Assembly: GCF_002979975.1 (NCBI RefSeq)
Contig: NZ_PCQD01000012.1
Location: 1-64,000 of the forward strand
Reading direction: 5' to 3'
DNA length: 64,000 nucleotides
From: Pseudomonas sp. MYb185
Lineage (GTDB): Bacteria; Pseudomonadota; Gammaproteobacteria; Pseudomonadales; Pseudomonadaceae
Numbering within the stretch: the stretch's first letter is position 1; each line of letters opens with the position of its first letter. The position numbers and the translations under genes are program-made. A model generated the notes under the pieces. The model searched no databases. It saw only the letters and a list, made by a program, of their open reading frames with translations, and had not been told where the DNA came from. Positions 22,361-44,061 of this stretch are shown in pieces.

Positions 22361-23305
22361 TCAGGACGTAAATGACCTGCGCAATGCCTGAGCTTCGACA
22401 GCAATCAGATCACGTACCACCTCCGCCAGTTCGCAAAAGCGCAACACACCATGGATAAGGCCTGGCGAGACCGTTAGCTGCGACTCCACGCCGGAATCCA
22501 GCAGTTTCTGGTGCAACTTCAGGTTCTCGTCCAGCAGCGGATCCAGATCGCCTACCACCAGCCTGGTAGGGGGCAGCCCCGCCAGCTCCGCCTGTAGGGG
22601 CTGAGCCCGCCAGTCGGCCTCGTTCTGTTGCAGATAGCTGGCCCAGTACTGGCGCATCGAATCGGCAGACAGTGCATGGCCGGCGTAGCCGCTCAAACGC
22701 TGCCATGAATCGGATTCCGTGTCGGTGGAAAACACCCCGTAAAACAGCAGCAGGTGCTGCAGACTCCGTACGCCGCGCTGCCGTAACGCGACAGCCGCGC
22801 CCAACGCCAAATTGGCACCGGCGGAATCGCCACCAAGAGCAAAGCGAGTAACCGCAAAGTCACCCAGTGCGCCCTCGGCAATCACCTGCTGGGTGATCGA
22901 ACACACCTCGTCAAAAGCGATGGGGAACGGCGCTTCGGGTGCCAGGGCGTATTCTATGGAGAGCACTGCTACACCGCTGTCACGCACCAGTTGCCTGAGC
23001 GGTGCATCCCAGCCCGACAAACTGCCGTGGCGGAAGCCGCCACCATGGCAATAGAACAGTAGCCCTGGCGCAGACCCGCTATCCGGCCAGTAGAGTTTGC
23101 AAGGCACACTGCGGCCGCCCGCGGGAAAATGGAGCAGGCGCTCCTCCAGCAGTGGTGTGCTGGACGCAGAAACGAATTCCGTCAAGCGTTCAAGATACTC
23201 CCGCACGCTCTGAAGACTCCCGGCGACCGGCGGGGTTAGCCCGGTGCCGTGGAGGCGCGAGGCGACCCGGGTCACATCGGGATGCACTTGCGGCAAAGGG
23301 ATCAT
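22361..23305 (-). CDS. Alpha/beta hydrolase, hormone-sensitive-lipase family
   Basis: A 314-residue esterase or lipase of the HSL (family IV) type: oxyanion-hole HGGGF, nucleophile elbow GGDSAGAN, acidic residue in VVGDLDPLLDEN and histidine in GLIHGVLRF. It probably hydrolyses small acyl esters or lactones in the cytoplasm. The start is uncertain. The in-frame ATG at 23305 gives the usual family length, while the frame stays open to 23410 and overlaps prpD; the ATG overlapping the prpD stop is out of frame. It is the last gene of the carboxylate operon, so its substrate may be a lactone or ester of the pathway. Confidence 0.8.
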   Translation of the reverse strand: MIPLPQVHPDVTRVASRLHGTGLTPPVAGSLQSVREYLERLTEFVSASSTPLLEERLLHFPAGGRSVPCKLYWPDSGSAPGLLFYCHGGGFRHGSLSGWDAPLRQLVRDSGVAVLSIEYALAPEAPFPIAFDEVCSITQQVIAEGALGDFAVTRFALGGDSAGANLALGAAVALRQRGVRSLQHLLLFYGVFSTDTESDSWQRLSGYAGHALSADSMRQYWASYLQQNEADWRAQPLQAELAGLPPTRLVVGDLDPLLDENLKLHQKLLDSGVESQLTVSPGLIHGVLRFCELAEVVRDLIAVEAQALRRSFTS

Positions 23306-23342
23306 GCTGCGCAGTTCGCCAAGCCTGTCGGTGTCGGGCTTC

Positions 23343-24725
23343 TCATGAGGGCTCTCCTTCGCTGCGCTCCATGGCGGTAAAAAGCGACTCGTAGTCAGAC
23401 CGCTGTTCAAGCGTCGCTACAAAATCCAGCACTTGATCCTGGGCGTGTGCAGACAAGTGCGGTGTCGCCATCTTGCGGAATTTGCGTTCGAATTCCACTG
23501 TGGTCATCGGCGTCTCTACAGAGCCGGGTCCGGTAATGGCTTCACTGACGAGTTTCTCCCCGGACGCCAGCAGGACGGTGACCCGGTTTGCCAGATGCTT
23601 CGGAAACAGCTTTGTCAGCGCTGAATCTTCGACGACCGACGTTCTTTCCATGAGTGCAACAACCAGCGGATCGGTAATCTTTTTCAACGAGTAGGAATCG
23701 ACCGAAATATCGCCATCAATTAGAGCCCGGGCCACGTTATAGGGCAGGCTATGATCCGCCGTTTCTCTGGTCTCTGGGCACCACTTGGACCCATCTGCCA
23801 ACACGCGCTTGTTAAACTCGGAGGTTTCGATACAGATGGATTGAATATCAAGAATATTCCCGACCTTGTTTTTCAGCTCGATAGCTGCCCATACGGCGGT
23901 GTGAAGTTCACCGTTAGTGGGAAAGGTCTTTGTCAGCGAGCGCTTGATCGCGTAATTGCCATCCCCTGCGGTTCCAAAGCCAGCCACATCCAGATCGAAG
24001 GGCCCCGTTACCTGATTGTAGAAGCCCATTTCACCCTCGAATATGGGTGCCGGGCCGGTCATTCCGTGGCGCGCCAGTTGGGCGGAAAAGATGGCGTTGC
24101 GCACGGCATTGGCAGCGGAGCAGCCCTTCCAGTCTGACAGGGTGCCGGAGCGAACCTGTCGCATGGCCAGATGACCGCTCAGAGCAATGTTGATCGCCTG
24201 CTCCGTCTGCTCTTCACTCAGTTTCATCAACTTGGCTGCCGCAGCGGCCATGGATACATTGAGATAATTCACGTGATCCCAGCCACGCTTGTTCAAGCTT
24301 GCCGCATCCTGCAGCCGCATCTGGATTTCGTAAGCGAGCAGAATTGCCGAGATCAGTTCCAGTCCGCTCGCCTTCTCCACTTGCGCTACCGCCAGGCAGC
24401 CGGGAATATTGTCGCTCGGGTGTCCCGGCTCCATCCCCATGTAGCCGTCGTTGTAATCCAGAAAACGAACCATGATGCCATTGGCAAATGCGGCGCTTTC
24501 CGGCGAAGTCTTGTAACGCGTGCCAAAAACACTGGCACTGCCCGGAATCGAGGAGGCATAAGCCACACTGGCCTCCACCGGCCCGGCCCCATAAGCCCCC
24601 AACACGCAGGCCAGACTGTCCAGGACCCGGCTTTGCACCAAGGCAACGAGGTCCCCAGCATGGTCTGCCGTAGGAAACGCATGTACATATCGGGCGAGCC
24701 TGCTTGCTAATGTTGCTTGTGTCAT
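23343..24725 (-). CDS. MmgE/PrpD family protein
   Basis: A 460-residue member of the MmgE/PrpD family, which includes 2-methylcitrate dehydratase (PrpD) and cis-aconitate decarboxylases. The N-terminal helical domain has DSLACVLGAYGAGPVEA and MVRFLDYNDGYMGMEPGHPSDNIPG, with the family Asp/His cluster. The C-terminal domain starts near residue 270 (KTFPTNGELHTAVWAAIELK). The ATG at 24725 is preferred because GGAGG is 5 nt upstream. Without prpB or prpC beside it, methylcitrate is not the obvious substrate; dehydration, isomerisation or decarboxylation of another tricarboxylate is possible. Confidence 0.85.
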   Translation of the reverse strand: MTQATLASRLARYVHAFPTADHAGDLVALVQSRVLDSLACVLGAYGAGPVEASVAYASSIPGSASVFGTRYKTSPESAAFANGIMVRFLDYNDGYMGMEPGHPSDNIPGCLAVAQVEKASGLELISAILLAYEIQMRLQDAASLNKRGWDHVNYLNVSMAAAAAKLMKLSEEQTEQAINIALSGHLAMRQVRSGTLSDWKGCSAANAVRNAIFSAQLARHGMTGPAPIFEGEMGFYNQVTGPFDLDVAGFGTAGDGNYAIKRSLTKTFPTNGELHTAVWAAIELKNKVGNILDIQSICIETSEFNKRVLADGSKWCPETRETADHSLPYNVARALIDGDISVDSYSLKKITDPLVVALMERTSVVEDSALTKLFPKHLANRVTVLLASGEKLVSEAITGPGSVETPMTTVEFERKFRKMATPHLSAHAQDQVLDFVATLEQRSDYESLFTAMERSEGEPS

Positions 24726-24800
24726 CATGTCCTCCATTAGGATAAAGCTGGCGTTGAAGCTCCTGGAAAAGCCCTTGGGCTTACAAGGGCTTGCTGACTA

Positions 24801-25109
24801 TCAACCTACGGATACATTCGACAGGCGCACATATTGCTGACCGGCATGCATATCCCGTTCAATGATGCCGCCTTGCGGCGTCGATCTTGGGTAAGAAATC
24901 TTTATCATCTCGAGCTGGGGCACAGGTATACGCTTGACCAAAGCAGGATCCGCCCCGTAAAGCTTTGCGAAGGACTCTACGGATAAGGCTTCGTCATCGT
25001 GATAACGGTCAAAACTCTCGCGACTGTCGAAATAGATATCGAAGGTGATCCAGAAGGGGCCCGCCTGCTTGGATCTGATATAGCGACATACGTCTTTCAA
25101 CTTAGGCAT
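24801..25109 (-). CDS. DUF4387 domain protein
   Basis: A 102-residue DUF4387 protein (MPKLKDVCRYIRSKQAGPFWITFDIYFDSRESF...). The domain is found either fused to or immediately after AtuA/DUF1446 proteins, and here its ATG overlaps the atuA-type stop by 8 bp (ATGCCTAA). This suggests a stoichiometric two-subunit complex. AAGGAG precedes the ATG at 25109, so the longer frame to 25142 is rejected. The biochemical function is unknown. Confidence 0.85.
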   Translation of the reverse strand: MPKLKDVCRYIRSKQAGPFWITFDIYFDSRESFDRYHDDEALSVESFAKLYGADPALVKRIPVPQLEMIKISYPRSTPQGGIIERDMHAGQQYVRLSNVSVG

Positions 25110-26517
25110 TGCTCTTCTCCTTACCAGTGCCTGTTTCGGCAAGATCCAGCCATTCGATACTGATCAATTCAAAGGGGTCTTCCATTTTCACCACGTGGTT
25201 CAACTTGAACTCATAAACCTGACCACGGGGGATATCGGCAGGAGAGAAGGCGAACCCGTATGAGGGCAGCTCCTTGCCCATGATGCTCGGGTAGTGGAAG
25301 AAGTAGGGGTTACAGGCGTGCGCTATGGCATTGGCCAGCTCCTGGGTTGCGGCCGTCGACACGAACAGCATGCCAACTTCCGGAGGCGTGGCCGTGCCCG
25401 GCGCTGGCCTCACCTCAGTGACCGCGTTCCAGCCGTACATGCGCAGGGAGATGTGAAACTCGCCCAGCTCCTCGGCCGGGATACACTGGCGCGTACGCTC
25501 ATAAAGAGCTTCCAGCAGGCGGTCATGGAAGCCATCGATATCCGCCAACACATCAGGGTCCTGAATGCCGACCAGCATGATGGTCTGATACAGCCCGGCG
25601 GCAGCGCCCTCAAGCTTCATGGTGTAGGGTTTGGGCTCCCAGGCAGACCCGGTCACCCGTACTGCTCGCTCGCGCACCATTTTGTATTCGGCATTACTGA
25701 CATCCAGCACACCACCGGGCTCGGTCAGCCGGAAAGGATCACTGTTTTCGTACAGCATATGCCCGGACACGCTATTGGGCGTACAGCGATTGTGAGTAGT
25801 CAGCGGCTCCACTTCAAAGCCGTCCTGGTCGACGGTCAACAGAACGCCTGATCCGGCGGTAGGGTTTTCTGCACATTGCAACCCGCATTCGGCCGTCTTC
25901 CCGGCATGCCAGGACGGCCCCCACGGAGCCCCTTTCCAGATCGGGAAGGCAGCAATTACCGCCGTGTCGGTTGCTCTACCGGCAAGAATGATGTCTGCAC
26001 CCGCTTCCAGCGCGGCTACAAACGGCTCCACCCCCAAAGCAGCGACGATATGCACGCAGGAATCTACCGTGGCGTCATCCAGCTCCGAAGATGGTGCCAG
26101 CGGGCTGATGCGCCCTTCGGCGTTGAGCTTCTTGATCGTCTCACGCTCCTGCTCGCAATGGATCAGAGCGACCTTCGGCGCCATATTCAGCTCACCAGCG
26201 ACCTCAAGTACGATATCACGCGTCCACGCCAGGTTGAGGTCGCCACCGGCCTGCCCGGCGGTGCCGACGATGATGGGTACGCCACTTGCTGCTTGTGCCT
26301 TCATCAGAATGGTCAGGTCGCGTTTGACCGCCCCGCGGTTGTTCTTGGACTTGCCCAGGGCCAAATAGGCTGCGCCGCTGTCGGTCGAACCCGCGTCCGT
26401 GGCAATGGCCTGCGCGCCCAGCTGCAGCCCATAGGCAATCTCCTCCTCTACAACCCCGGCACCCAAAGAGCCGCAGGGCACAATGACCTTGATAGCACCA
26501 TCAAAATTCGTCTTCAT
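25102..26517 (-). CDS. Acyclic terpene utilisation AtuA family (DUF1446) protein
   Basis: A 471-residue protein of the AtuA/DUF1446 family, starting IKVIVPCGSLGAGVVEEEIAYGLQLGAQAIATDAGSTD, with the motifs VGTAGQAGGDLNLAWTRD and ILAGRATDTAVIAAFP. The family is named from the atu acyclic terpene cluster of P. aeruginosa, where AtuA has no settled reaction. No other atu genes (geranyl-CoA carboxylase, acyl-CoA dehydrogenases) are present here, so terpene catabolism is not supported. Together with DUF4387, PrpD and a tricarboxylate carrier it points to carboxylic acid metabolism. Confidence 0.85.
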   Translation of the reverse strand: MKTNFDGAIKVIVPCGSLGAGVVEEEIAYGLQLGAQAIATDAGSTDSGAAYLALGKSKNNRGAVKRDLTILMKAQAASGVPIIVGTAGQAGGDLNLAWTRDIVLEVAGELNMAPKVALIHCEQERETIKKLNAEGRISPLAPSSELDDATVDSCVHIVAALGVEPFVAALEAGADIILAGRATDTAVIAAFPIWKGAPWGPSWHAGKTAECGLQCAENPTAGSGVLLTVDQDGFEVEPLTTHNRCTPNSVSGHMLYENSDPFRLTEPGGVLDVSNAEYKMVRERAVRVTGSAWEPKPYTMKLEGAAAGLYQTIMLVGIQDPDVLADIDGFHDRLLEALYERTRQCIPAEELGEFHISLRMYGWNAVTEVRPAPGTATPPEVGMLFVSTAATQELANAIAHACNPYFFHYPSIMGKELPSYGFAFSPADIPRGQVYEFKLNHVVKMEDPFELISIEWLDLAETGTGKEKSNA

Positions 26518-26582: not shown

Positions 26583-27593
26583 CTAGGGCCGCACTGCCGC
26601 TCCGTCCACAATCAGGCAACCCGGCGGTGGCTGGTGGCCATCAAGCACGGCGCTGACACAGCGCGCCGCGACAGCATTGGCGCGCTGCAGCCCTTCATGT
26701 GTGGAAGCCCCCGAGTGCGGAGTGGCCACCACGTTCGGTAGGCGTACCAGTTCCTTGGTCACGTCGGCGAGCCGGGCGTCCAGCTCGCTTTCAAATACAT
26801 CCAACCCTGCTCCGCCAAGCCGCCCATCCTTCAGCGCAGCCAGAAGCGCCCGATCATCGACCAGGCCACCACGCGCCGTGTTGATCAGAAACGCTGTGCT
26901 TTTCATCTGGGCCAGCCGATCTGCATTGATGAGATGCTGGGTCTCAGGCATGAAAGGTGCGTGAATGGACACGAAGTCACTACGCTGCAGAAGCGTCTCA
27001 AGATCGACGTATTCGATACCCATCGACTGCCCATGATCGGAAGAAGGCCGTGGGGTATTTACCAGGATGGTGGTATCGAAGCCTTTCAGCCGCTTTACGA
27101 CATTCCTGGCGATGCGGCCCAGACCAATCACGCCCACTGTTTTGGCATACAGATCACTTCCCAGCAGGATGGCGCCTGGCCCATCTATGAGCTGCTCTTG
27201 CGATTCGCGAATGCGATGCGCAGCGCTGAGCATCAGAGCCAGAGTGCGATCCGCTACGCTTTCTTCGTTACCACCCGCAGCAATGGTCACTACCTTCTCG
27301 GTTTCGATTGCCGCGCTCAGGTCAATTTTTTCGTAGCCCACTCCGCGGCGGGCAATGACCTTGAGCCTCGGCAGCGCCTGGAGCAGACCCAGCGTGATCC
27401 GGGCATGGCCGACGATCCAGGCATCGGCCTCCGACAGCAGTGCAATCAGCTCGGCTTCCGTCGCGTTGGCATCGTTCTTCCCCTCCGGGAAGCGCGCTAC
27501 CGTTACGGAACAGCCATGCCCTTCCAGAAAGCCGATCGTCGCCTCATCGATAAACCTTGGGGTAATAACGACCGATTTGTTTTTGCTCACCAT
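26583..27593 (-). CDS. D-2-hydroxyacid dehydrogenase (NAD-dependent)
   Basis: A 336-residue dehydrogenase of the D-isomer-specific family. It has the Rossmann motif VGVIGLGRIARNVVKRLKGF, the catalytic Arg in LINTARGGLVDDRAL, Glu in GLDVFESE and His in ATPHSGASTHEG. The reaction would be reversible oxidation of a D-2-hydroxyacid to a 2-oxoacid in the cytoplasm. The ATG at 27593 gives the normal N-terminus; a GTG at 27632 is too close to its GGAGGG. It sits in the middle of the carboxylate operon, between the porin and atuA-type genes. Confidence 0.86.
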   Translation of the reverse strand: MVSKNKSVVITPRFIDEATIGFLEGHGCSVTVARFPEGKNDANATEAELIALLSEADAWIVGHARITLGLLQALPRLKVIARRGVGYEKIDLSAAIETEKVVTIAAGGNEESVADRTLALMLSAAHRIRESQEQLIDGPGAILLGSDLYAKTVGVIGLGRIARNVVKRLKGFDTTILVNTPRPSSDHGQSMGIEYVDLETLLQRSDFVSIHAPFMPETQHLINADRLAQMKSTAFLINTARGGLVDDRALLAALKDGRLGGAGLDVFESELDARLADVTKELVRLPNVVATPHSGASTHEGLQRANAVAARCVSAVLDGHQPPPGCLIVDGAAVRP

Positions 27594-27643
27594 ATCCAGC
27601 CCACCGTTTGACGTTGTTTTGCGTACTGACACCCCTCCGGCTG

Positions 27644-29044
27644 CTAGAACGCGTAATCCATGTACACTCGTAATTCTTTACCGTTAACCACGTTGTTGGG
27701 TTGCGCCGACACCAGAGCGACAAAGTCCTCATTGATCCAATAACGTGTGTAGATAACTCCGACTGAGAGGCCCTGATAATCCTTTTCTTCAAAGCGATAG
27801 TTCAGGCGATACTCGGCCTGGCTTTCCTGAATGCTGGTACTTGTTCTGGTGAAAGGATTGGTGGCATCGAACTCGCCGCGCTTGAACAGCGCCATGACGT
27901 TGAAGCCATCCAGAGATAAGCCTCCCAGCGATGCGTTCTTGAAGTCATACTTGCCCGCCACCTGCCAGGTTTCTTCACCATCGTTGTTGAAATCATTACC
28001 CGAGCGGGTCCATGCATCCATGCGACCATCCACATTGTCGCCGTGGTCGAAGTAGGCGTAGCCCAGCTGGCCGTTGGTCAGTTCCGCTTTGGTTTTGGAG
28101 TAGGAAAGCCCCAGGCTCCAGCTATCCACCTGCAGCCCCAGGTTGAGGTTCAGCCAGGTGGCCTTATCGTCGAATCCGGCATCGCCTACCGCCCAGTCAC
28201 GCTGCCACACGTCACCATCGCTGCGCATGTCGTAGTAGATGCTTTCGAAAATGGCCCCCCCGCGTTTGCCGATGGGCGCTCGCAATGTCACGCCGTAACT
28301 GGTGTTCTTGTTGAAATCGGCGGCGACTCCGCGTGCATATCTCAGGGCGAAGAGCTTGGCGTCATAACCGATACCGAAGGTCTTGATATCGTCGATCTGT
28401 TCTCCACTGTTGCTGAGAATCTTCTCGAAATCCTCACGGTCACGCGGCGACACGCGATTGAAATAGGCGCCATCGATATTCAGTACGCCGGGCAGCGGCC
28501 CGATATCCAGTCCATCTATCGCCAACTGCGCACGGGCGCCCTGCAGACTCCCCGGCACCGCCCGGGTATCCAGAGTGCTGACGGTACCGGCGTCGAATCG
28601 CCCGCGTCCGGTTTGAAGGACGGCGGTCCAGTTTTCGCCACCACGGCGGAACTTCAAGTTGGCCTGACCCAGTTTTGCAAAGCCTTTGTTCGTACCTGAG
28701 GTGTCGTCGAAGAGATCCCGGTCTTCCGGCCGTGCGTCGATTTTCGCTACGCCATAAAACGATGCATCAAACCCGATGCTGTCTCGCCAGTATCCCGAGT
28801 TGTAGTCCGCCACCAGACCCAGAGCAGTGCCACCGAGGCGATCGCCAAAGGGGAAACCACCAAAATTGTCCTCTATCAGTTCGTTTTCAATGCGCGTATC
28901 GATATGAACGGTCCGCAGATACACGTTGAACTTGCCGGAATTATTGGTCCTGTCGTAATCGTGAATGGTCGACGCCAAAGCAGGTAGCTGAGCACCAAGC
29001 ACAGCTGTGGCAAGAACTGCACATGTCACGTTTCTGGTTGTCAT
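27644..29044 (-). CDS. OprD family outer-membrane porin
   Basis: A 466-residue porin with a signal peptide (TTRNVTCAVLATAVLGAQLPALA), alternating amphipathic beta strands, an early strand SGKFNVYLRTVHIDTR and a C-terminal strand LRVYMDYAF ending in Phe. The pattern GLVADYNSGYWRDSIGFDASFYGVAK is typical of OprD-type specific channels, which take up amino acids or carboxylates. AAAGGA precedes the ATG at 29044. It is second in the operon behind the CitMHS carrier, so it likely admits the same substrate. Confidence 0.88.
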   Translation of the reverse strand: MTTRNVTCAVLATAVLGAQLPALASTIHDYDRTNNSGKFNVYLRTVHIDTRIENELIEDNFGGFPFGDRLGGTALGLVADYNSGYWRDSIGFDASFYGVAKIDARPEDRDLFDDTSGTNKGFAKLGQANLKFRRGGENWTAVLQTGRGRFDAGTVSTLDTRAVPGSLQGARAQLAIDGLDIGPLPGVLNIDGAYFNRVSPRDREDFEKILSNSGEQIDDIKTFGIGYDAKLFALRYARGVAADFNKNTSYGVTLRAPIGKRGGAIFESIYYDMRSDGDVWQRDWAVGDAGFDDKATWLNLNLGLQVDSWSLGLSYSKTKAELTNGQLGYAYFDHGDNVDGRMDAWTRSGNDFNNDGEETWQVAGKYDFKNASLGGLSLDGFNVMALFKRGEFDATNPFTRTSTSIQESQAEYRLNYRFEEKDYQGLSVGVIYTRYWINEDFVALVSAQPNNVVNGKELRVYMDYAF

Positions 29045-29133
29045 CTGAGTGTCCTTTATATTTATTTTGGCAACAGAATCCCTTAGCCACCGCACTAGCG
29101 CTGGCGGCTAACTTCGAGATGTGTTTTTTAGTG

Positions 29134-30429
29134 TTAGGAAATAGCGCCGGTCAGTACCGCACCCGCAATAAACACCAGCGAGGCACCTATCGCCGGCAAT
29201 AGAGCAAACTTCTGAAGATCTCCCACTTCTTTATTAAGAAGTCCGGCGATGACATAAATGGCCGCAATCAAGGGGCTGAGTGCGTGTACCGGCTGGCCCA
29301 GCATGGAAGCACGGGCAATGTGCATCGGATCGACGCCATATTCCGCTCCGGCGGCAGCCAATATCGGCACAATGCCGAAAAAGTAAGCGTCGTTGGACAT
29401 GAAGAAGGTGAAAGGCAGTGAGGAGAAGGCGGTAATCAACGCCATATGACTGCCTGCCGACTCCGGGATCACGGCTACAAAGGACTCGGACATGGCATCC
29501 ACCATCCCCGAACCGGTCAGTATCCCGGTGAACACACCCGCAGCGAAGATCAGCATCGCTACAGTGATGGCGTTCTCCGCATGGGCTGCGATGCGCTTCT
29601 TTTGCTCAGCCAGTCGCGGATAGTTGATGAGCAGTGCCAGAGCAAAGGTCACCACCATCACCACCGGCAACGGCGCCACGCCAGTCCCCATGGCACCCGC
29701 CATGCCAAGCATCAGAACCAGATTGACCCAGACCAGCTTCGGGCGCTGATGGCTACGATCAATCTCGGGCACCTTTACTCCCCCCGCCTCTGACAACAAC
29801 ATATCCTTGCCGGGCTCCCAGCCCAGACGCTTGCGCTCCCGCAGGCCCAGCCACCAGGCTACGCCTGTTGCGTACACCAGGCCCAGGAGCGCCGCCGGGA
29901 TCAGGCCGGCAAACACTTCCATCACATCCAGGTTCAGCGCACTGGCTACTCGCGCAGTAGGGCCGCCCCAGGGGATGATATTGATCATGGTATTAGTCAG
30001 CAGGATGAGCAGCGCGATGATCAGCGGGTTCATGCCTATGCGCAGATAGACCGGCAGAAAGGCGGTGACCACGATCAACACTGTGCTGGTGCCGTCGCCG
30101 TCCAGGGAGGTCACGGCGCCGAGAAAGGCCGTGGCCAGGGCTATGCGTAAAGGGTCGTGGCCGGCAAAGCGCGTAATGGTCTTGACCAGCGGCTCGAATA
30201 AGCCGGCGTCATACATGATCGAGAATAGCAATATCGCGAAAATCAACATGATCGCTACCGGGGCGACCTGCCGCATGCCACCCATGATCATCCCGCCCAT
30301 TTCACCGCCCAAACCGGCAGCCAGACCAAAAACAACGGGCACGAGAATCAAAGCTACTACCGCTGATAACCGCTTGGTCATGATGAGCACCATGAAGGTG
30401 ATCACCATACCGAATCCAATCCAAGCCAT
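29134..30429 (-). CDS. CitMHS family citrate/carboxylate symporter
   Basis: A 431-residue inner-membrane carrier with about 12 helices and the CitMHS signatures: early MRQVAPVAIMLIFAILLFSIMYDAGLF, the conserved TSLDGDGTSTVLIVVTAFLPVY, WGGPTARVA, and MSNDAYFFGIVPILAAAGAEYG near the C-terminus. Characterised members (Bacillus CitM/CitH) import metal-citrate with protons. AAGGAAAAGAC precedes the ATG, and AATAAGAA in the leader resembles a Crc/Hfq CA motif. First gene of a seven-gene operon, divergent from the HTH-citrate-synthase gene. Confidence 0.92.
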   Translation of the reverse strand: MAWIGFGMVITFMVLIMTKRLSAVVALILVPVVFGLAAGLGGEMGGMIMGGMRQVAPVAIMLIFAILLFSIMYDAGLFEPLVKTITRFAGHDPLRIALATAFLGAVTSLDGDGTSTVLIVVTAFLPVYLRIGMNPLIIALLILLTNTMINIIPWGGPTARVASALNLDVMEVFAGLIPAALLGLVYATGVAWWLGLRERKRLGWEPGKDMLLSEAGGVKVPEIDRSHQRPKLVWVNLVLMLGMAGAMGTGVAPLPVVMVVTFALALLINYPRLAEQKKRIAAHAENAITVAMLIFAAGVFTGILTGSGMVDAMSESFVAVIPESAGSHMALITAFSSLPFTFFMSNDAYFFGIVPILAAAGAEYGVDPMHIARASMLGQPVHALSPLIAAIYVIAGLLNKEVGDLQKFALLPAIGASLVFIAGAVLTGAIS

Positions 30430-30509
30430 TTGTCTTTTCCTTCTTATTTTAAGCTACGCGAACCACCCTGTTGGTGATTAGGATGGGACAGTACACATTG
30501 ATTTTTGAT

Positions 30510-30554
30510 GTGTAAATCTTGATTTTATACATGCATATTTACATTAATAATGCA
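30510..30554. promoter_or_regulatory. Two AT-rich dyads between the carboxylate operon and its divergent regulator
   Basis: Dyad 1 is TGTGTAAA-TCTTGAT-TTTATACA (30510-30532, one mismatch between 8-bp arms). Dyad 2 is TGCATATTA-CAT-TAATAATGCA (30533-30554, one 1-nt bulge). They lie side by side in a 196-bp divergent intergenic region, which is much richer in A+T than the flanking genes. They are the obvious operator candidates for the HTH protein encoded next door. Confidence 0.5.
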
Positions 30555-30625
30555 TACATGCTCTAATCAGCGTGCTGCGCCAACAGCGCTCAACCACGTT
30601 CACTTATTCACTAGGGCGATTGCTT

Positions 30626-31813
30626 GTGAGCGACGATCATCTTTACCTATCGGCCGAGGAAGCTGCAGGCATTCTGGGCGTCAATCTTCCGACTCTCTAT
30701 GCTTACGTAAGCCGAAAAAATATTCGTTCGGTCAAGGTGGAGGGCTCCCGCAAGCGGCGCTATTGGGCCGCAGATATCGAGAGGCTGACCAAGGGTAACA
30801 AGCGACCCGGCACGGCCGAGCAGCCGATGCTGGGCTTGGGCAATCAGAGCAGCGCCATTACCCTGCTGACCGATAACGGCGTTTATTACCGCGGCGTCAG
30901 CGCTACCGAGTTGGCCGACGCCGCATCGGTAGAGGAGGCGGCGGAGCTCATCTGGCAATCCTCTGGCGCCTTTTCCGAAGCATTGCCAACCATGCCAGCA
31001 TGCACCAAGACTCTGCTGGACCTTTACAGCGACATGAGCGTATCGGAGAAAGCCATTGCGTTGTTTCCGCTGGTTGAGCGGGAAAACCCACGAGCTTTCG
31101 ATCTGTCACCCGATGCCTACGCCAGAACGGGCGCGGATGTGGTGCGCATCCTTGCCTCACTTATAGCCGGCCGCGGCGCGCCAAGCACACAGCCGTTGCA
31201 TGAGTTCATGACCAGCGAACTGAAGGTCGACCCCGCCTACAAGGACCTGATCAGGCGCCTGATGGTGCTGTTCATTGACCATGAGTTTGACCATTGCACC
31301 TATAGCGTCAGGGCCGCCGCGCGCACCGGGGTCACACCCTACTACGCCGCGATTGCCGGGCTGACGACCTACCAGGGCAGACGCACGGCCTACAGTCGGC
31401 ACCAGGCAGCCAATCGGCTGCTTACCGAAATATGCGTGGCAAAGGACCCGACCCCAGCGATACTGCAGTACTTCAGCCAGAGCGGCGAGATACCGGGGTT
31501 CAACCACTCCACGCACAAGCTCGAAGATCCACGCGTAGCGAACCTGCTGACCGCTCTCACACAGCTGTTCGAGTCCGATCAGGAGTTCCAGAACCTGATG
31601 AAAGCGGTGGAAGTGGCCAATGAGCTGGTGCGCAAGCCACCGGAATTTGTCCTACTGGCCAGTTTCGTCGGACGCAAATGCAACCTTGTCGGCCAGGAGC
31701 TGGCCCTGGCTGGTATCGCCCGGACCATTGGCTGGATTGCTCACGCCAGCGAACAGTGTCAACTGCCCATATCTCGCCAGCGCGCCAACTACGTCGGCAA
31801 GCTTCCGCTGTAG
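30626..31813 (+). CDS. HTH protein fused to a citrate-synthase-like domain
   Basis: A 395-residue protein with an N-terminal MerR/excisionase-type helix-turn-helix (about 6-55: YLSAEEAAGILGVNLPTLYAYV, then RKRRYWAADIERL) and a citrate-synthase-fold domain (about 70-375). The large-domain landmark GFNHSTHKLEDPR keeps the GxxH histidine (His294), and RTIGWIAHASEQ matches the C-terminal helix. The segment that carries the oxaloacetate-binding LHGG histidine in true enzymes reads YQGRRTAY (249-256), so activity is doubtful. I infer a ligand-sensing regulator of the divergent operon. The GTG start at 30626 gives VSDDHLYLSAEEAA; an upstream frame is open to 30572. Confidence 0.85.
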   Translation: MSDDHLYLSAEEAAGILGVNLPTLYAYVSRKNIRSVKVEGSRKRRYWAADIERLTKGNKRPGTAEQPMLGLGNQSSAITLLTDNGVYYRGVSATELADAASVEEAAELIWQSSGAFSEALPTMPACTKTLLDLYSDMSVSEKAIALFPLVERENPRAFDLSPDAYARTGADVVRILASLIAGRGAPSTQPLHEFMTSELKVDPAYKDLIRRLMVLFIDHEFDHCTYSVRAAARTGVTPYYAAIAGLTTYQGRRTAYSRHQAANRLLTEICVAKDPTPAILQYFSQSGEIPGFNHSTHKLEDPRVANLLTALTQLFESDQEFQNLMKAVEVANELVRKPPEFVLLASFVGRKCNLVGQELALAGIARTIGWIAHASEQCQLPISRQRANYVGKLPL

Positions 31814-31858: not shown

Positions 31859-32467
31859 TCATTCCAGCCAGGGATTGGCGGCAAAGTGCCCCGCCTCAAA
31901 CTGCTCTATCGCCTCGCTCAGCGTCAGGGTACTGCCTATCGCATCAAGGCCGGAGATCAGCGCCTCTTTGCGCAGGCCATCTATCGCGAATTGCACACTG
32001 GTGCCATCCGCCAGCCTGATCTGCTGGGCGGGCAGGTCTACTTCCAGTTCGGCGCCGCTTGCCTGCGAGACAGTACGACCGATGGCACTGACCTGCTCCT
32101 TGTCGAGCTCGATCAGCAAAACACCATTGCGCTTGCAGTTGTCGAAGAAAATTCCGGCAAAGCTGCTGCCGATCAATGCTCGGATACCAAGTTGGCGCAG
32201 CCCCCATACGGCATGTTCGCGACTTGAGCCGCAGCCGAAGTTGGGGCCTACCACCAGGAATTGCGCCTTACTCCAGGGCGGCTGATTCAGAATGAAATCA
32301 GGATTGAGCAAGCCGTCGGCGAGAAACCGCAAATCGTGAAACAGGCCCCGGTCGAGGCCTGAACGGTCTATCCCCTTCAGGAACTGCTTCGGCATTATCA
32401 CATCTGTATCAATATTGGCCGCCAGCATGGGGGCGGCCACACCCTGCACCTTGGTAAAGGTTTCCAT
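31859..32467 (-). CDS. LeuD-type hydro-lyase small subunit
   Basis: A 202-residue aconitase-swivel subunit: PMLAANIDTDVIMPKQFLKGI at the N-terminus and FGCGSSREHAVWGLRQLGIRALIGSSFAGIFFDNCKRNGVLL, which forms the substrate-binding swivel. It works with the adjacent LeuC-type subunit, whose stop it overlaps by one base. It looks like isopropylmalate isomerase, but no leuA or leuB is present, and it sits in a carboxylate locus, so citramalate-, malate- or homocitrate-like substrates are equally possible. Confidence 0.87.
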   Translation of the reverse strand: METFTKVQGVAAPMLAANIDTDVIMPKQFLKGIDRSGLDRGLFHDLRFLADGLLNPDFILNQPPWSKAQFLVVGPNFGCGSSREHAVWGLRQLGIRALIGSSFAGIFFDNCKRNGVLLIELDKEQVSAIGRTVSQASGAELEVDLPAQQIRLADGTSVQFAIDGLRKEALISGLDAIGSTLTLSEAIEQFEAGHFAANPWLE

Positions 32468-33891
32468 TAGTCCTCCTGCTCGGCGAAAAGGTCTCTGACA
32501 TCCGCCAGCTTTCCGGCTATAGCGGCAGCCACCACCATCACGGGGCTCATAAGGTGCGTTCGCGAACCAGCCCCCTGCCTGCCTTCAAAGTTGCGATTGG
32601 TGCTTGATGCACAACGATCGCCAGGCTCCAGCACGTCATCATTCATTGCCAGGCACATCGAACAGCCCGATTGCCGCCACTCGAAGCCTGCGTCAATGAA
32701 CTGCTGCGCCAGGCCTTCGGCCTCCGCCTGGTGCTTGACCATGGTCGAACCCGGCACAATGATCGCGCGCACCCCGCTGGCCACCCGACGCCCGCGCAAT
32801 ATCGTCGCGGCCATACGCAGATCTTCGATGCGCGAGTTGGTGCACGAACCTATGAAGGCATGGCTAATGGGTATCTCGCTGAACGGTGTGCCGGGCTGCA
32901 GATCCATATAGCGCAGCGCTCGTTGCATATCCATGCGCTTAAGCAGATCGGGCTCGGACTCCGGGTCCGGTATCTGGCCATCGATGCTCTGCACCTGATC
33001 TGGACTGGTGCCCCAGGTCACCATAGGTTTTAGCGTATCGGCGTCCAGCTCAACCTCCAGGTCAAAATGGGCGTCAGGATCACTGTATAACTCGCCCCAG
33101 CGGGCCAGAGCTGCATCCCAAAGCGCACCCCTGGGTGCCCTGGGTTTGCCAGCCAGGTACGCAAAGACCTTGTCGTCCGGCGCCATGAAGGCACCTCTTG
33201 CTCCCGCCTCAACCGCCATATTGCAGATGGTCATCCGCGCCTCCACCGACATGGCGTCGATTACGGGCCCCTGGAACTCGATGGCGTACCCGGAGGCGCC
33301 CGAGGCACCAATTTGACCGATCAACGCCATGATCACATCCTTGGACGTCACCTGCGTACCCAACGCCCCCCGCACCAGAACACGCATGGACTTGAGCTTC
33401 TTGTACACCAGGGTCTGAGTGGCAAGCAGGTGCTCGATTTCCGAGGTGCCTATACCGAAGCCGAATGCGCCCAGCGCACCATAAGTGGTGGTATGGCTGT
33501 CGCCGGCCGCTATCACCATGCCCGGCAGAATGTAGCCCTGCTCAGGGGCCACCACGTGCTCGATGCCTTGCCGCTCGTCCAGGATGTCGAACAGTTCTAT
33601 GCCGAACTCCTCGCAGTTCTCGCCGAAATAGGAGACCTGACGCGCACCACCGGCATCGGCAACCTCCGCCGTACGCACGGCGGAAGTCGGGTTTACATGG
33701 TCCACCACCCCTAGGGTCGCAGAAGGCCGCCACACCCTGCGCCCTGCCTCACGCAGCCCGCTGAAAGCCTGCGGGCTGGTGTACTCATTGGCGACCTGGC
33801 GGTCGATGTAGAGCAACACATGTCCCTGATCGTCGAGCTTGCAGATGGTGTGGGAATCAATGTGTTTGTCGTAGAGGGTTTTCGGCTGCAT
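32467..33891 (-). CDS. LeuC-type hydro-lyase large subunit (4Fe-4S)
   Basis: A 474-residue aconitase-superfamily large subunit, starting MQPKTLYDKHIDSHTI. The three cluster ligands are Cys350 (FIGSCTNSR), Cys410 and Cys413 (SGCSMC). AAGDSHTTTYGALGAFGFGIGTSEIEHLLATQ is the usual active-site helix. GGAG precedes the ATG at 33891; the frame extends to 34053 without support. It is divergent from an AbrB-family gene across an AT-rich region with a perfect dyad. The reaction is a dehydration/rehydration of a hydroxy-di- or tricarboxylate. Confidence 0.9.
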   Translation of the reverse strand: MQPKTLYDKHIDSHTICKLDDQGHVLLYIDRQVANEYTSPQAFSGLREAGRRVWRPSATLGVVDHVNPTSAVRTAEVADAGGARQVSYFGENCEEFGIELFDILDERQGIEHVVAPEQGYILPGMVIAAGDSHTTTYGALGAFGFGIGTSEIEHLLATQTLVYKKLKSMRVLVRGALGTQVTSKDVIMALIGQIGASGASGYAIEFQGPVIDAMSVEARMTICNMAVEAGARGAFMAPDDKVFAYLAGKPRAPRGALWDAALARWGELYSDPDAHFDLEVELDADTLKPMVTWGTSPDQVQSIDGQIPDPESEPDLLKRMDMQRALRYMDLQPGTPFSEIPISHAFIGSCTNSRIEDLRMAATILRGRRVASGVRAIIVPGSTMVKHQAEAEGLAQQFIDAGFEWRQSGCSMCLAMNDDVLEPGDRCASSTNRNFEGRQGAGSRTHLMSPVMVVAAAIAGKLADVRDLFAEQED

Positions 33892-33996
33892 GGCTGCTCC
33901 AGATAATTCCACCGGTAACTCGAAATCTGCGCGCGCTCTGCTCGTCAAAGGACGAGCAGTAAGATTGGGAATGGAGGATACGCATGCACAAATTCG

Positions 33997-34028
33997 ATGT
34001 AAATGTGTACTTAATTTGTACACTACAT
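33997..34028. promoter_or_regulatory. Dyad operator candidate between leuC-type and AbrB genes
   Basis: A perfect inverted repeat GTGTAC-TTAATTT-GTACAC (34005-34023) is flanked by ATGTA (33997-34001) and TACAT (34024-34028). Like dyad 1 at 30510-30532, it has TGTGTA arms around a 7-nt AT-rich spacer in a divergent promoter region. The same regulator may bind both. Confidence 0.5.
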
Positions 34029-34149
34029 ATTTATACGCATGGATAATTTTCATACAGATTTACGAAAAACTATCAACAGTATATTTTCTCCATCTTCAGT
34101 AGGGCGCAGCGAGATGCTGCATGGATTTCACATCAACAAGGCCCCGATA

Positions 34150-35217
34150 ATGAACAACGGCAAACGCAGAGTGGGCTTATGGCTGGTACTGGCATTACTG
34201 TCTGTGGCGGCCGCCACCTTGATGTATCGGCTGCAACTGCCAGGTGCTTTCATGCTTGGCCCGATGCTGGCGGCGGTAGTGTTCGCCATCAGCGGCGCCG
34301 GACTACGGGTGCATCGGCAGTTCTCCATCGGGGCTTTAAGCATCATGGGCTGCCTGATAGCAGGCTTCATCACGCCCAGCCTGCTGACGGTATACCGCGA
34401 CCACTGGCTGGCGCTCAGCGCAGCCAATATCGCCACCCTGCTGCTCATCATTGCCGTGGCGACCTTGATCACCCGGCGCAAATGGCTGCCCGACAGCACG
34501 GCAGTCTGGGGACTCTTCCCCGGTGCGGCTTCGGCAATGGTGCTGCTGGCGGACAGCCAGGGCTCTGACGCACGCATTGTGGCGATGATGCAGTACACCC
34601 GAATTGTCATGGTCTCGGTTGCGTCCATTGCCATGGCGGCGCTGCTTGATCAGGGGCAGGAGGGTGTCGGCGACTCGGGACCGCTGGGGCTGGTCTGGTC
34701 CGCGCCGGCAGACTACAGCCCTTTGCTTGCGGGACTGGCGCTGGCGCTATCCGGGTATATCGCAGCCAGACTGAGCGGCATCAATTCGCTCGCGCTCTTT
34801 CTTCCGGCATTCGGGGGGGCAGCGCTGCAGGGTGCAGGCCTCGTGAGGTTTGAAATTCCGTCCTTTATCTTTATCCCGGCCTTTGCCGTGACCGGCTGGT
34901 ACGTAGGCCTGATGTTTACTCGTAGCACCATAAGGTACTGCCTTGGCCTGTTGCCAATCATGCTGGCGGCCATTGTGCTGGTGGTCTTCGTTTGCGGGCT
35001 GGTAGCCTTGGTGCTGGCGCGAATGGTGCTGGACACAGATATTCTCACCGCCTACCTTGCAATGAGTCCGGGCGGTATCGAAACCATCGTCATCATTGCA
35101 CGGGACACCAATGTGTATCTGCCGCTGATACTGGCTTCGCAGTTCCTGCGTCTGCTGATTATGCTATCGATCGGTCCCAGTGTCGCCAGGGCCGTCGTGG
35201 GTTGGCAGAGTCGATAG
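34150..35217 (+). CDS. AbrB family membrane protein (putative transporter)
   Basis: A 355-residue polytopic protein of the AbrB/AidB-regulator family (PF05145 type), with two repeated halves of about five helices. Each half has a glycine-proline segment (LPGAFMLGPMLAAVVFA; SLALFLPAFGGAALQGAGLV). Annotations as ammonia monooxygenase are misleading; a transport role is more likely. The ATG at 34150 has AAGG 8 nt upstream, whereas the frame extends back to 34039 through the operator-like region. It may be a second carrier for the carboxylate system. Confidence 0.8.
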   Translation: MNNGKRRVGLWLVLALLSVAAATLMYRLQLPGAFMLGPMLAAVVFAISGAGLRVHRQFSIGALSIMGCLIAGFITPSLLTVYRDHWLALSAANIATLLLIIAVATLITRRKWLPDSTAVWGLFPGAASAMVLLADSQGSDARIVAMMQYTRIVMVSVASIAMAALLDQGQEGVGDSGPLGLVWSAPADYSPLLAGLALALSGYIAARLSGINSLALFLPAFGGAALQGAGLVRFEIPSFIFIPAFAVTGWYVGLMFTRSTIRYCLGLLPIMLAAIVLVVFVCGLVALVLARMVLDTDILTAYLAMSPGGIETIVIIARDTNVYLPLILASQFLRLLIMLSIGPSVARAVVGWQSR

Positions 35218-40765: not shown

Positions 40766-40839
40766 TGAGCTCTGATCAAGACAGCGTTTGCCTCTTCCCG
40801 CCACACTGCTGATCAAAATCAAAAATGCCAAGGTGCACC

Positions 40840-43800
40840 ATGCCTCTACCTCACCCGCTGCATGATCAGAACAGGCAACAACACGGCGCAGCTGACGACC
40901 TGCTGCATCCCGATCTGGAACACCAGAGCCTGCAGCAACTGGCTCGGCAGATCAGCCAGCATTACATGGTGGATGAAAACACCTTGATGCCTGAGCTCAT
41001 CCAGTTGCTGGATCACCAGCCAGAGCATATTCAACGGCTGCATGAGCGCACCGCAGAGCTTGTTGAGCGGGTACGCAGCCAGGGCGATGCCATAGACAGC
41101 CTGGATCAACTGTTGCAGCAGTACAGTCTCGACACCCAGGAAGGCGTGCTGTTGATGTGCCTGGCGGAAGCACTGCTGCGTGTTCCTGATTCCCGCACCG
41201 CGGAAGCCCTGATTCGCGACAAGTTGTCCGTCGCTGACTGGAAAAGCCACCTGGGACAAAGTGATTCGCTGTTGGTCAACGCCTCTACCTGGGGGCTGAT
41301 ACTGACCAAGCGGGTGGTGAAGATGGACCCGCGCCATGATCAGCCTGTCCCCGTATTCAATCGTTTGATCAGCCGTCTGGGCGAGCCGGTCGTGCGTCAG
41401 GTGATGTCCCACGCGATGAAACTGATGGGACATCAGTTCGTGCTCGGTCGCACCCTGCCGGAAGCCCTCGCCAATGGCAAACCCCTGTTCAAGCAGGGCT
41501 ACACCTATTCCTTCGATATGCTCGGCGAAGCGGCATGCACCCACCAGGATGCCCAACGTTATTTCTCCGCCTACCTGGATGCCATCGAGCGTGTTGGCCA
41601 GGCCGGCACCAAGGTCACGGCTGCGGCCCCTGCGCCCTCCATTTCGATCAAGCTGTCGGCCTTGCACCCACGCTACGAGCGCAGCCAGCGTGACAGGGTA
41701 CTCAAGGAGCTCGGCAACACGCTGGGCCTGCTTGTGACCCGTGCCCGAGAGCTGGATGTAGCGATCACCCTGGATGCCGAAGAGGCGGATCGGCTTGAAC
41801 TCTCGCTGGAGGTGCTGGAGCAGGTCTATCGTCAGCAGGCCAAGGGCTGGGGCAAGCTGGGCCTGGTGGTACAGGCCTACTCCAAGCGTGCACTGCCGGT
41901 ATTGCATTGGCTGACCCGCCTGGCAACCGAACAGGGTGACGAGATTCCCGTTCGCCTGGTCAAGGGTGCCTACTGGGATACTGAGATCAAGCAGGCGCAG
42001 ATAGAAGGGCTCGCCGACTACCCGGTTTATACACGCAAAGCCAACACCGATATTGCCTATCTCGCCTGCGCTCGCTATCTGCTCTCGGACCTCACCCGTG
42101 GCCGACTGTTTCCCCAGTTTGCGACCCACAATGCCCACACGCTGGTCTGCCTGCTGGACATGGCAGGAGACAGGCCCATCGAGTTCCAGCGGCTGCATGG
42201 CATGGGTGAAGCCTTGTACAAGCAGGCCTTGCAGCTTGCCCCGGCGGGCAGCTACTGCCGCATCTATGCACCGGTAGGGGCGCACAAGGACTTGTTGCCC
42301 TACCTGGTACGCCGCCTGCTGGAAAACGGAGCCAACTCTTCATTTGTACATCAACTGGTCGATGAGCGCGTTCCCGTGGCGCAACTCTGTCGCCACCCTC
42401 TGGAAGTCCTCAGCGGCAAGGCGGCCTATCGCAACACCAGCATCCCGCTGCCCCATGACCTCTACGGACCGGAACGGCCGAACTCCAAAGGGGTGAACCT
42501 GCTGATCAATAGCCAGCTTGATCCTCTGCTCCAGGCCATGCGGTCCTGGGATCAACATCAGTGGCAAGGCCGGCCCCTGCTGGCTCAGGCGGCTGATACC
42601 GACGCGGGGCCAAGCCGGAGCGTAATCAGCCCCTTTGATCGCCGCCAGCAGGTTGGGCAGATCGAATGGACCACGGCCGAGCAGGTGCAACGTGCGCTGG
42701 ACGCCGCCGCGCTCGCCTTCCCGCGCTGGAATGCCGTTGCGGTGACGGAGCGCGCCGCCAAACTACGGCGCCTGGCTGACCTGCTGGAAATGCACTTTGC
42801 CGAGTTGATGGCATTGTGTGCCCGTGAAGCTGGCAAGCAGCTCTCCGATGGCGTTGCCGAAATCCGCGAGGCCGTGGATTTCTGCCGCTATTACGCCCAT
42901 CAGGCCGAGCAGAAGATGGGACAACCAATCCAACTGCCAGGCCCCACCGGTGAATCCAATGAACTCTATCTCACCGGTAGAGGCGTGTTCGTTGCCATCA
43001 GCCCGTGGAACTTCCCGGTCGCCATTTTCCTGGGCCAGGTGGCTGCCGCTGTGGTTACAGGCAATACGGTACTGGCAAAACCCGCCGAGCAGACATCACT
43101 GGTGGCCCATCGTTGCATCGAGCTGATGTATGAAGCCGGCATCGAGCGGGATGTCGTGCAGCTCCTGCCCGGCTCCGGCAAGGAGCTTGGCCCCTTGCTC
43201 ACCAGTGATCCTCGCGTTGTCGGCGTGGTCTTTACCGGTTCAACCGCGACCGCCTGGCAGATCAATCTCAACCTCGCCCAGCGTCAAGGCGCCCCTCTGG
43301 CGGCACTGATTGCCGAAACCGGCGGTCAGAATGCCATGATTGTCGACTCCACCGCCCTGCCCGAGCAGGTCGTTGCCGATGTTGTGGAGTCCGCTTTTGC
43401 CAGCGCGGGACAACGCTGTTCCGCCTTGCGGGTGCTGTTCCTGCAGGAGGATATCGCTGACAAGGTGGAAGAACTGCTTGCCGGTGCCATGCAGGAATTG
43501 CAATTGGGTGATCCACGCGCTCTGGCCACCGATGTCGGCCCGGTGATCGATGCCCAGGCCAGACAGAAACTGCAGGCGCATATCGAGCAATGCCGCCAGC
43601 AGGACCGGGTACTGGCCGAAACCTCTGTACCCGACGCATGGCGAGCGAATGGCGAATTCGTGGCTCCGGTGGCCCTCAGGCTGGACCGCATTGATCAGCT
43701 GGAAGCCGAGCACTTTGGTCCGGTCCTGCACATCATTCGCTACCGCGCGACAGAAATAGACCAGGTTATCGAGAGCATCAACCGCTGCGGCTATGGCCTG

Positions 43801-44061
43801 ACGTTTGGCATCCAGAGCCGTAATGAAGGACTCGCCGCTGACATCGAACGACGAGTTCGCATAGGTAATGTGTATATCAATCGTAATATGATAGGCGCTG
43901 TTGTGGGCGTTCAGCCCTTTGGCGGTATGGGGCTCTCCGGTACAGGCCCCAAGGCTGGCGGGCCGCATTATCTGCTGCGCTTTGTCACTGAAAAAACCCG
44001 TACCATCAATACCGCGGCAATAGGCGGTAATGCCAGCCTGCTGGCGCAGGGAGATGACTGA
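40840..44061 (+). CDS. putA: PutA, proline dehydrogenase / P5C dehydrogenase
   Basis: A 1073-residue bifunctional enzyme oxidising proline to glutamate. The FAD-dependent proline dehydrogenase barrel covers about residues 80-520 (AYSKRALPVLHW, VRLVKGAYWDTEIKQAQ, ATHNAHT). The aldehyde dehydrogenase domain follows (ISPWNFPVAIFLGQ, VFTGSTATAWQIN, AETGGQNAMIVDS, catalytic Cys860 in GQRCSALRVLF). There is no N-terminal ribbon-helix-helix domain, so it does not repress itself; regulation passes to PruR. The ATG at 40840 follows AAGGTG by 4 nt; another ATG lies at 40825. Confidence 0.95.
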   Translation: MPLPHPLHDQNRQQHGAADDLLHPDLEHQSLQQLARQISQHYMVDENTLMPELIQLLDHQPEHIQRLHERTAELVERVRSQGDAIDSLDQLLQQYSLDTQEGVLLMCLAEALLRVPDSRTAEALIRDKLSVADWKSHLGQSDSLLVNASTWGLILTKRVVKMDPRHDQPVPVFNRLISRLGEPVVRQVMSHAMKLMGHQFVLGRTLPEALANGKPLFKQGYTYSFDMLGEAACTHQDAQRYFSAYLDAIERVGQAGTKVTAAAPAPSISIKLSALHPRYERSQRDRVLKELGNTLGLLVTRARELDVAITLDAEEADRLELSLEVLEQVYRQQAKGWGKLGLVVQAYSKRALPVLHWLTRLATEQGDEIPVRLVKGAYWDTEIKQAQIEGLADYPVYTRKANTDIAYLACARYLLSDLTRGRLFPQFATHNAHTLVCLLDMAGDRPIEFQRLHGMGEALYKQALQLAPAGSYCRIYAPVGAHKDLLPYLVRRLLENGANSSFVHQLVDERVPVAQLCRHPLEVLSGKAAYRNTSIPLPHDLYGPERPNSKGVNLLINSQLDPLLQAMRSWDQHQWQGRPLLAQAADTDAGPSRSVISPFDRRQQVGQIEWTTAEQVQRALDAAALAFPRWNAVAVTERAAKLRRLADLLEMHFAELMALCAREAGKQLSDGVAEIREAVDFCRYYAHQAEQKMGQPIQLPGPTGESNELYLTGRGVFVAISPWNFPVAIFLGQVAAAVVTGNTVLAKPAEQTSLVAHRCIELMYEAGIERDVVQLLPGSGKELGPLLTSDPRVVGVVFTGSTATAWQINLNLAQRQGAPLAALIAETGGQNAMIVDSTALPEQVVADVVESAFASAGQRCSALRVLFLQEDIADKVEELLAGAMQELQLGDPRALATDVGPVIDAQARQKLQAHIEQCRQQDRVLAETSVPDAWRANGEFVAPVALRLDRIDQLEAEHFGPVLHIIRYRATEIDQVIESINRCGYGLTFGIQSRNEGLAADIERRVRIGNVYINRNMIGAVVGVQPFGGMGLSGTGPKAGGPHYLLRFVTEKTRTINTAAIGGNASLLAQGDD

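Follow-up and report, generated by a model that had tools for sequence, protein, structure and literature searches.

A helix-turn-helix protein with a catalytically dead citrate synthase domain: a likely one-component regulator at a tricarboxylate gene cluster of Pseudomonas sp. MYb185

Introduction

Enzyme-derived one-component regulators include the MocR proteins (aminotransferase fold) and the ROK repressors (sugar kinase fold), in which an enzyme fold has come to serve a transcription factor as its ligand-sensing domain, as we propose here for HTH-CS, a protein combining a helix-turn-helix (HTH) domain with a citrate synthase (CS) fold. PutA, the classic enzyme-repressor, likewise couples a metabolic enzyme fold to a DNA-binding domain at a catabolic operon; it stays catalytic and carries a different DNA-binding domain. 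Citrate-responsive control of citrate metabolism is exerted by CcpC, a LysR-type citrate sensor (PMC8514465), which has a LysR effector-binding domain in place of the citrate synthase fold of HTH-CS. The methylcitrate pathway is controlled by PrpR regulators (PMC3420887); they resemble the system discussed here in the local control of citrate-homologue metabolism, and at two loci HTH-CS is found opposite a pair of prpB-like and PrpC-like genes. BldC, an HTH protein of 68 residues that lacks a sensor domain, recognizes 9-bp direct repeats (PMC5859096). It shares with HTH-CS a MerR-like HTH without a coiled-coil dimer and repeats spaced along one strand, and differs in that the HTH-CS half-sites lie 19-21 bp apart and the CS domain would supply dimerisation.

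The HTH-CS gene studied here lies in a 64,000-nucleotide stretch of Pseudomonas sp. MYb185 DNA, called the window below. With GltA and PrpC (PF00285) the protein has in common the fold and the residues H229, R314, R387 and R407, along with H305 in the window's subclade; it differs from them in lacking H264 and D362, in its N-terminal HTH and in a conserved predicted operator at its own promoter. Compared with PutA, the window protein appears to have lost catalysis, and its catalytically intact relatives would be the closer analogue. A sequence-only reading of the locus had proposed a sensor of citrate, oxaloacetate or acyl-CoA with no described function. A search of the open-access full-text literature found no description of a citrate synthase-based regulator. 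The name "PrpQ" was considered for HTH-CS, and the same literature gave no support for it. Enzyme-derived sensors are a known kind, and what appears new is the CS fold as sensor, together with the split into intact and dead members within one fused family.

Results and Discussion

Architecture of HTH-CS and its gene cluster

Fusion of an HTH to a citrate synthase, as claimed earlier, is borne out by Pfam, with HTH_17 (28.8 bits) and Citrate_synt (100 bits) both above the cut-off of 27 in one open reading frame. The longest reading frame (30572-31813, plus strand, 413 aa) opens at GTG 30572. Translation probably begins instead at GTG 30626 (VSDDHLYL), from where the orthologues align. The motifs listed in the sequence-only reading, GFNH, RTIGWIAHASEQ and the degenerate YQGRRTAY, are all present. 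Among curated CS families the best NCBIfam score is 53.8, far below the cut-off of 421.3, and the MerR HTH family (MerR_1, PF13411) falls just short at 20.4 against 21.6. A PADLOC match to mad1 (18 bits) covers the HTH only and was discarded.

The AlphaFold model, built from a diverse 60-row alignment, reaches a mean pLDDT of 87.6, compared with 39.7 when only 18 close orthologues were supplied. All 50 PDB matches listed for the model are citrate or 2-methylcitrate synthases. As modelled, a helix at residues 48-58 is followed by a low-confidence linker (59-73) and then by the strands of the CS domain, and the model contains no long dimerising coiled coil after the HTH.

The position of the gene opposite a CitMHS operon also held up: HTH-CS on the plus strand faces the CitMHS carrier on the minus strand (Table 1). 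The chemistry encoded around it (carrier, MmgE/PrpD-type dehydratase, LeuCD-type hydro-lyase, 2-hydroxyacid dehydrogenase) would parallel the sequence from citrate through aconitate and isocitrate to oxidation. Apart from HTH-CS, the stretch from 22.3 to 35.2 kb of the window has no identified transcription factor; the nearest one identified is a LysR protein at 38951. The identified genes of the operon include no CoA-ligase or CoA-transferase. Taken at their longest, the LeuC-like and AbrB reading frames overlap in their 5' parts; the likely starts leave an intergenic region with two predicted operators. A PutA with a DNA-binding domain is encoded at 40825-44061, 9 kb from HTH-CS.

Table 1. 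Features of the HTH-CS locus. Positions are those of the window; active-site residues are numbered as in E. coli CS and were placed by alignment with canonical citrate synthase.
Feature	Position	Strand	Basis or detail
Alpha/beta hydrolase	22361..23410	-	PF07859; same position in L004, L006, L007
MmgE/PrpD-family dehydratase-like protein	23343..24737	-	PF03972/PF19305
DUF4387 protein	24801..25142	-	PF14330
AtuA-family protein	25102..26517	-	PF07287
D-2-hydroxyacid dehydrogenase	26583..27632	-	PF02826/PF00389
OprD-family porin	27644..29095	-	PF03573
CitMHS citrate:proton symporter, first gene of divergent operon	29134..30429	-	TIGR00784, 483.6 bits
Predicted operator 1, CitMHS/HTH-CS promoter	30491..30537	+	GTACACA 30491-30497, GTAAATCT 30512-30519, third element ATGCATA 30531-30537
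HTH-citrate synthase (HTH-CS), putative regulator gene	30626..31813	+	ORF, Pfam, start alignment, model
HTH_17 (MerR/excisionase-like) N-terminal DNA-binding domain	30644..30790	+	PF12728, residues 25-73 of ORF
Citrate synthase-fold domain, putative sensor	30848..31759	+	PF00285 Citrate_synt, residues 93-396 of ORF
H229 position (oxaloacetate ligand): His, kept	31280..31282	+	Alignment
H264 position (catalytic): Thr, lost	31385..31387	+	Alignment; within YQGRRTAY
H305 position: His, kept in window subclade only	31505..31507	+	Alignment
R314 position (substrate carboxylate): Arg, kept	31532..31534	+	Kept in 33/33 dead members
D362 position (catalytic): Val, lost	31649..31651	+	Alignment; within PEFVLL
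R387 position (substrate carboxylate): Arg, kept	31721..31723	+	Kept in 33/33 dead members
R407 position (substrate carboxylate, partner subunit): Arg, kept	31775..31777	+	Kept in 33/33 dead members
LeuD-like small subunit (aconitase superfamily)	31859..32467	-	TIGR00171
LeuC-like large subunit	32467..33891	-	TIGR00170; likely start ATG 33891, where conserved match begins; ORF opens 34053
Predicted operator 2, leuC-like/AbrB divergent promoter region	33978..34006	+	1 mismatch to TAHACA-N14-GTAAATST (28-base genome pattern)
Predicted operator 3, leuC-like/AbrB intergenic region	34056..34084	-	1 mismatch in both pattern scans
AbrB-duplication membrane protein	34150..35217	+	PF05145, TIGR03082; likely start ATG 34150, ORF opens 34039

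Predicted operators

Upstream of HTH-CS, GTAAATCT is found in all 18 loci compared. A perfect or near-perfect NTAHACA-like element begins 21 bp ahead of it, and a third element follows near +19. What is conserved at the window promoter is a set of GTAAA-like half-sites in one orientation, 21 and 19 bp apart (-21, 0, +19). The sequence-only reading had instead described two tight AT-rich dyads. Inverted repeats do exist between CitMHS and HTH-CS, but TACACAT/ATGTGTA (30492/30508) is not conserved, and TGTAAAT/ATTTACA (30511/30537) keeps its GTAAAT..ATTTAC core in the window subclade only.

With up to one mismatch, NTAHACA-N14-GTAAATCT has 38 sites in 17 of the 18 loci, compared with 0-2 for each of 30 shuffled patterns; predicted operator 2 departs from this stricter form at two positions. 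For the 28-base pattern TAHACA-N14-GTAAATST, the organism's own 4.1-Mb genome has exactly three matches with at most one mismatch (30492, 33979 and 34056), all at the HTH-CS cluster, where those at the leuCD/AbrB promoters lie 3.5 kb from the one shared by CitMHS and HTH-CS. At two mismatches the same genome gives 21 matches against 17 for a reversed control, which is background, so only matches with at most one mismatch were used. Operator 1 is the sole perfect match across this genome and 36 congeners; the congeners, all without an HTH-CS gene, contain none. In nine carrier genomes every perfect match (15 of 15) adjoins HTH-CS. Two Pseudomonadaceae carriers lack a perfect match, which counts against HTH-CS as a regulator. 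The motif was derived from some of the loci later counted; that it is missing elsewhere in each genome does not depend on this derivation. A further copy of the operator is found in the Pseudomonas subclade ahead of a DUF1302-DUF1329 operon (L009:9452-12600 and equivalents), which we take to be of the outer-membrane export/uptake type; this placement suggests a hydrophobic or esterified substrate.

Distant HTH-CS loci carry a different element, TCAATMTTGAT-N6/7-ATCAAY. Its N7 form has 16 matches in 15 genomes and no control matches. Fourteen of the 16 sit at an HTH-CS start, and the other two, both in one genome (G728, contig C3, near 430000), are some 2.9 kb away from its second HTH-CS gene. 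The N6 form has three matches in the 15 genomes, and the one remaining genome has this form at its HTH-CS start. The distant operators lie within a few tens of bases of the HTH-CS start, and most share the core AATCTTGAT with the window's site. Their symmetry differs, being a TTGATT-N5-AATCAA dyad rather than spaced half-sites in one orientation, and this too counts against the regulator reading. The dyad would suit a CS dimer bearing two HTH domains. By co-occurrence, such locus-specific operators are the strongest evidence pointing to HTH-CS proteins as DNA-binding regulators.

At the window promoter, the predicted operator (30491-30537) overlies a weak -35/-10 pair for CitMHS on the minus strand (TTTACA-N17-TACTGT), read by eye and not reported by the promoter scan. 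HTH-CS is probably a repressor, since its predicted operator overlies the apparent -35/-10 pair of this one promoter and, at distant loci, the operators are near the start of the HTH-CS gene itself. The protein might instead be a MerR-type activator or a direct-repeat binder like BldC, and no repressor. The narrowly missed MerR_1 cut-off hints in this direction, as do half-sites 21 and 19 bp apart along one strand, BldC being a head-to-tail binder of direct repeats (PMC5859096). Against this stand the low-confidence linker that the model shows in place of a long coiled coil after the HTH, and family-wide operators a few tens of bases from the gene's own start, as is typical of autorepression. 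MerR-type promoters moreover typically have spacers of 19-20 bp, compared with 17 bp, as read by eye, at the apparent CitMHS promoter. On balance we consider an activator or direct-repeat binder unlikely, at roughly one chance in four, and continue with HTH-CS as a probable repressor.

Active site and ligand

The active site was read by alignment with canonical citrate synthase, in E. coli numbering and with the functional roles known for that enzyme. The statement that a catalytic motif is lacking was right but understated, as besides H264 also D362 is lost (V/I). In the window's subclade H305 is kept, and the ligand residues H229, R314, R387 and R407 are all in place. Across 68 HTH-CS proteins the two catalytic residues behave in an all-or-none manner, both kept in 35 and both lost in 33. 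R314, R387 and R407 are all present in each of the 33 proteins without H264 and D362, a count that overstates independence because many of these are close relatives. The same three arginines are nevertheless retained by L118, L103_2528 and L119, proteins that are either distant from the window's clade or divergent members of it. H229 is present in 31 of the 33, and H226 is absent from all 68, the catalytically intact ones included. The simplest reading is that the dead proteins gave up catalysis and retained the binding of a carboxylate ligand. Much of the Pseudomonas subclade has lost H305; there the adjoining loop has an insertion in some members and the alignment is uncertain. A six-residue insertion (e.g. 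AHTAHH), in the loop that bears H305 in citrate synthase, occurs in HTH-CS of L010, L011 and L014-L019 and is absent from other Pseudomonas orthologues. Loss of H305 together with the loop insertion means an altered ligand pocket in this subclade, which counts against the regulator reading.

Taken together, the joint loss of H264 and D362 with retention of the three arginines, the conserved divergent placement, the confinement of the predicted operator to this locus genome-wide, the different and equally locus-specific operator at distant homologues and the lack of another identified transcription factor in the cluster all favour the earlier proposal of an enzyme fold recruited as a one-component regulator. 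We consider it likely, with good if not full confidence, that HTH-CS acts as a one-component regulator of transcription and senses its ligand through a catalytically dead citrate synthase.

As to the ligands named in the sequence-only reading, a citrate- or oxaloacetate-like carboxylate is favoured and acyl-CoA is not, the retained positions being the substrate-carboxylate arginines. We favour a citrate-like, perhaps alkylated, tricarboxylate, because the operon chemistry would parallel the route from citrate to isocitrate oxidation. A regulator responding to an acyl-CoA or CoA ester, with no free carboxylate, seems improbable to us. Citrate synthase does bind CoA, and a family III CoA-transferase gene lies opposite HTH-CS at four distant loci. 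However, the invariant positions are those for substrate carboxylates, D362, which activates acetyl-CoA, is lost, and the GFxH loop, located by the CoA site of citrate synthase, has diverged or contains an insertion; the window's operon, moreover, pairs a carboxylate carrier with no identified CoA-ligase or CoA-transferase.

It is very hard to sustain that HTH-CS works as a (methyl)citrate or alkylcitrate synthase beside the pathway it feeds, its HTH being mere decoration: fold and substrate arginines are kept, as are H264 and D362 in 35 relatives, but both catalytic residues are gone in all of the window's clade (33/33 dead members), the genome already has two further, full-scoring citrate synthases (on C25 and C26), and the HTH-CS promoter carries a conserved predicted operator.

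For HTH-CS as a repressor, the following mechanism can be envisaged. The citrate-synthase dimer would place two HTH domains on the operator. The old oxaloacetate/citrate site of the CS domain would take up the ligand, either a citrate-like tricarboxylate brought in by CitMHS or the first product of its breakdown. Citrate synthase closes around oxaloacetate or citrate, and the same open-to-closed domain movement would alter DNA affinity and so couple ligand to DNA. Repression of CitMHS would be relieved by the ligand and the HTH-CS gene would be autoregulated. The targets would comprise the CitMHS-porin-dehydrogenase-AtuA-DUF4387-MmgE/PrpD operon, HTH-CS itself, the leuCD-like genes and the gene for the AbrB-type membrane protein.

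Gene neighbourhoods, phylogeny and origin of the family

CitMHS lies upstream of HTH-CS on the opposite strand in 17 of 17 orthologous loci, with a MipA-type gene between the two in several Pseudomonas loci (e.g. L009); in L150 and L151 the neighbour of HTH-CS is AtuA. Neighbours of 27 distant HTH-CS genes, picked from the best matches so that the counts do not describe a random sample, are more varied: 15 are divergent from a gene for a plain citrate synthase, four from one for a family III CoA-transferase, two from one for a cation-efflux protein, one each from genes for TctC, AtuA, a porin or a methyltransferase, and two from a prpB-like gene followed by a citrate synthase gene. The suggestion that the operator belongs to another regulator and HTH-CS is a passenger draws on the assignment of operator to protein by co-occurrence, and we give it almost no weight, as perfect matches in carriers lie only beside HTH-CS genes, congeners without HTH-CS lack the site, a motif specific to their own locus occupies the same place at distant HTH-CS genes, whose neighbours are quite different, and the cluster contains no other identified transcription factor.

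Several of these neighbourhoods have features of their own. All 15 plain citrate synthases divergent from an intact HTH-CS (L104-L107, L109, L110, L113, L116, L117, L121, L123, L124, L126-L128) have Glu in place of the catalytic Asp362 (NVEF/NVEY), and their reaction may differ from that of ordinary citrate synthase. At L114:7447-9712 and L122:7489-10903, HTH-CS is divergent from a prpB-like PEP-mutase/ICL gene and then a citrate synthase gene; the HTH-CS of these two loci is a candidate non-PrpR regulator of the methylcitrate pathway, PrpR proteins having an architecture unrelated to HTH-CS. The cation-efflux (CDF) genes face HTH-CS at L118 and L125, and the HTH-CS of L118 is dead, with H229 and H305 also gone and all three arginines retained. 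On a plasmid of Cupriavidus oxalaticus (L103), two HTH-CS paralogues about 5 kb apart face a porin-MFS pair and an AtuA-DUF4387-tricarboxylate transporter operon.

Searches with the N-terminus spanning HTH and CS gave matches in 14 of 299 genomes at family level and in 35 of 369 at class level. At phylum level 73 of 399 genomes had matches, strong ones in about 55; matches spanning the HTH at E < 1e-14 were found in only five of the 369 class-level genomes, the window's own included. Plasmids with matches occur in Agrobacterium, Burkholderia, Cupriavidus and others. This family-wide scope, which takes in catalytically intact HTH-CS proteins, had been overlooked in the earlier reading.

On a tree of the CS domain only, the HTH-CS proteins of Pseudomonadota form one clade of 42 members against plain CS (SH-aLRT 99), and a careful tree leaving out the long branch L119 separates plain CS from HTH-CS with support of 100/100. 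The window's dead clade, including both Cupriavidus oxalaticus paralogues, is likewise supported at 100/100, and L118 and L099 form a second dead pair separate from it; L119 resembles a third loss on a branch too long to place. The HTH fusion would accordingly have arisen once within the sample, catalysis appears to have been lost in at least two well-supported separate lineages, and fusion first with catalytic loss later is the simplest order.

The gene is absent from all 36 sampled congeners, while copies 82-86% identical occur with the same cluster in Stutzerimonas, Pseudomonas and Alloalcanivorax; HTH-CS of MYb185 was therefore probably gained by horizontal acquisition.

Conclusions

Extending the proposal from MYb185 to the whole clade, we lean slightly towards a widespread, apparently undescribed transcription-factor family of Pseudomonadota, in which intact members would be (methyl)citrate synthases and also repressors reading their own substrate or product, and in which repeated loss of catalysis would have produced members that only sense tricarboxylates, HTH-CS of MYb185 among them. 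The family offers intact and dead versions for direct comparison, and operators are predicted in many genomes, making binding testable at once. HTH-CS also gives a handle on the unassigned CitMHS/AtuA/DUF4387/MmgE/LeuCD pathway. If the proposal is true, the "citrate synthase family protein" annotations in these genomes would need to be changed to regulators, and the fold of citrate synthase, an enzyme of central metabolism whose ligand-driven domain closure is well studied, would join the few enzyme folds that have been turned into sensors for transcription.
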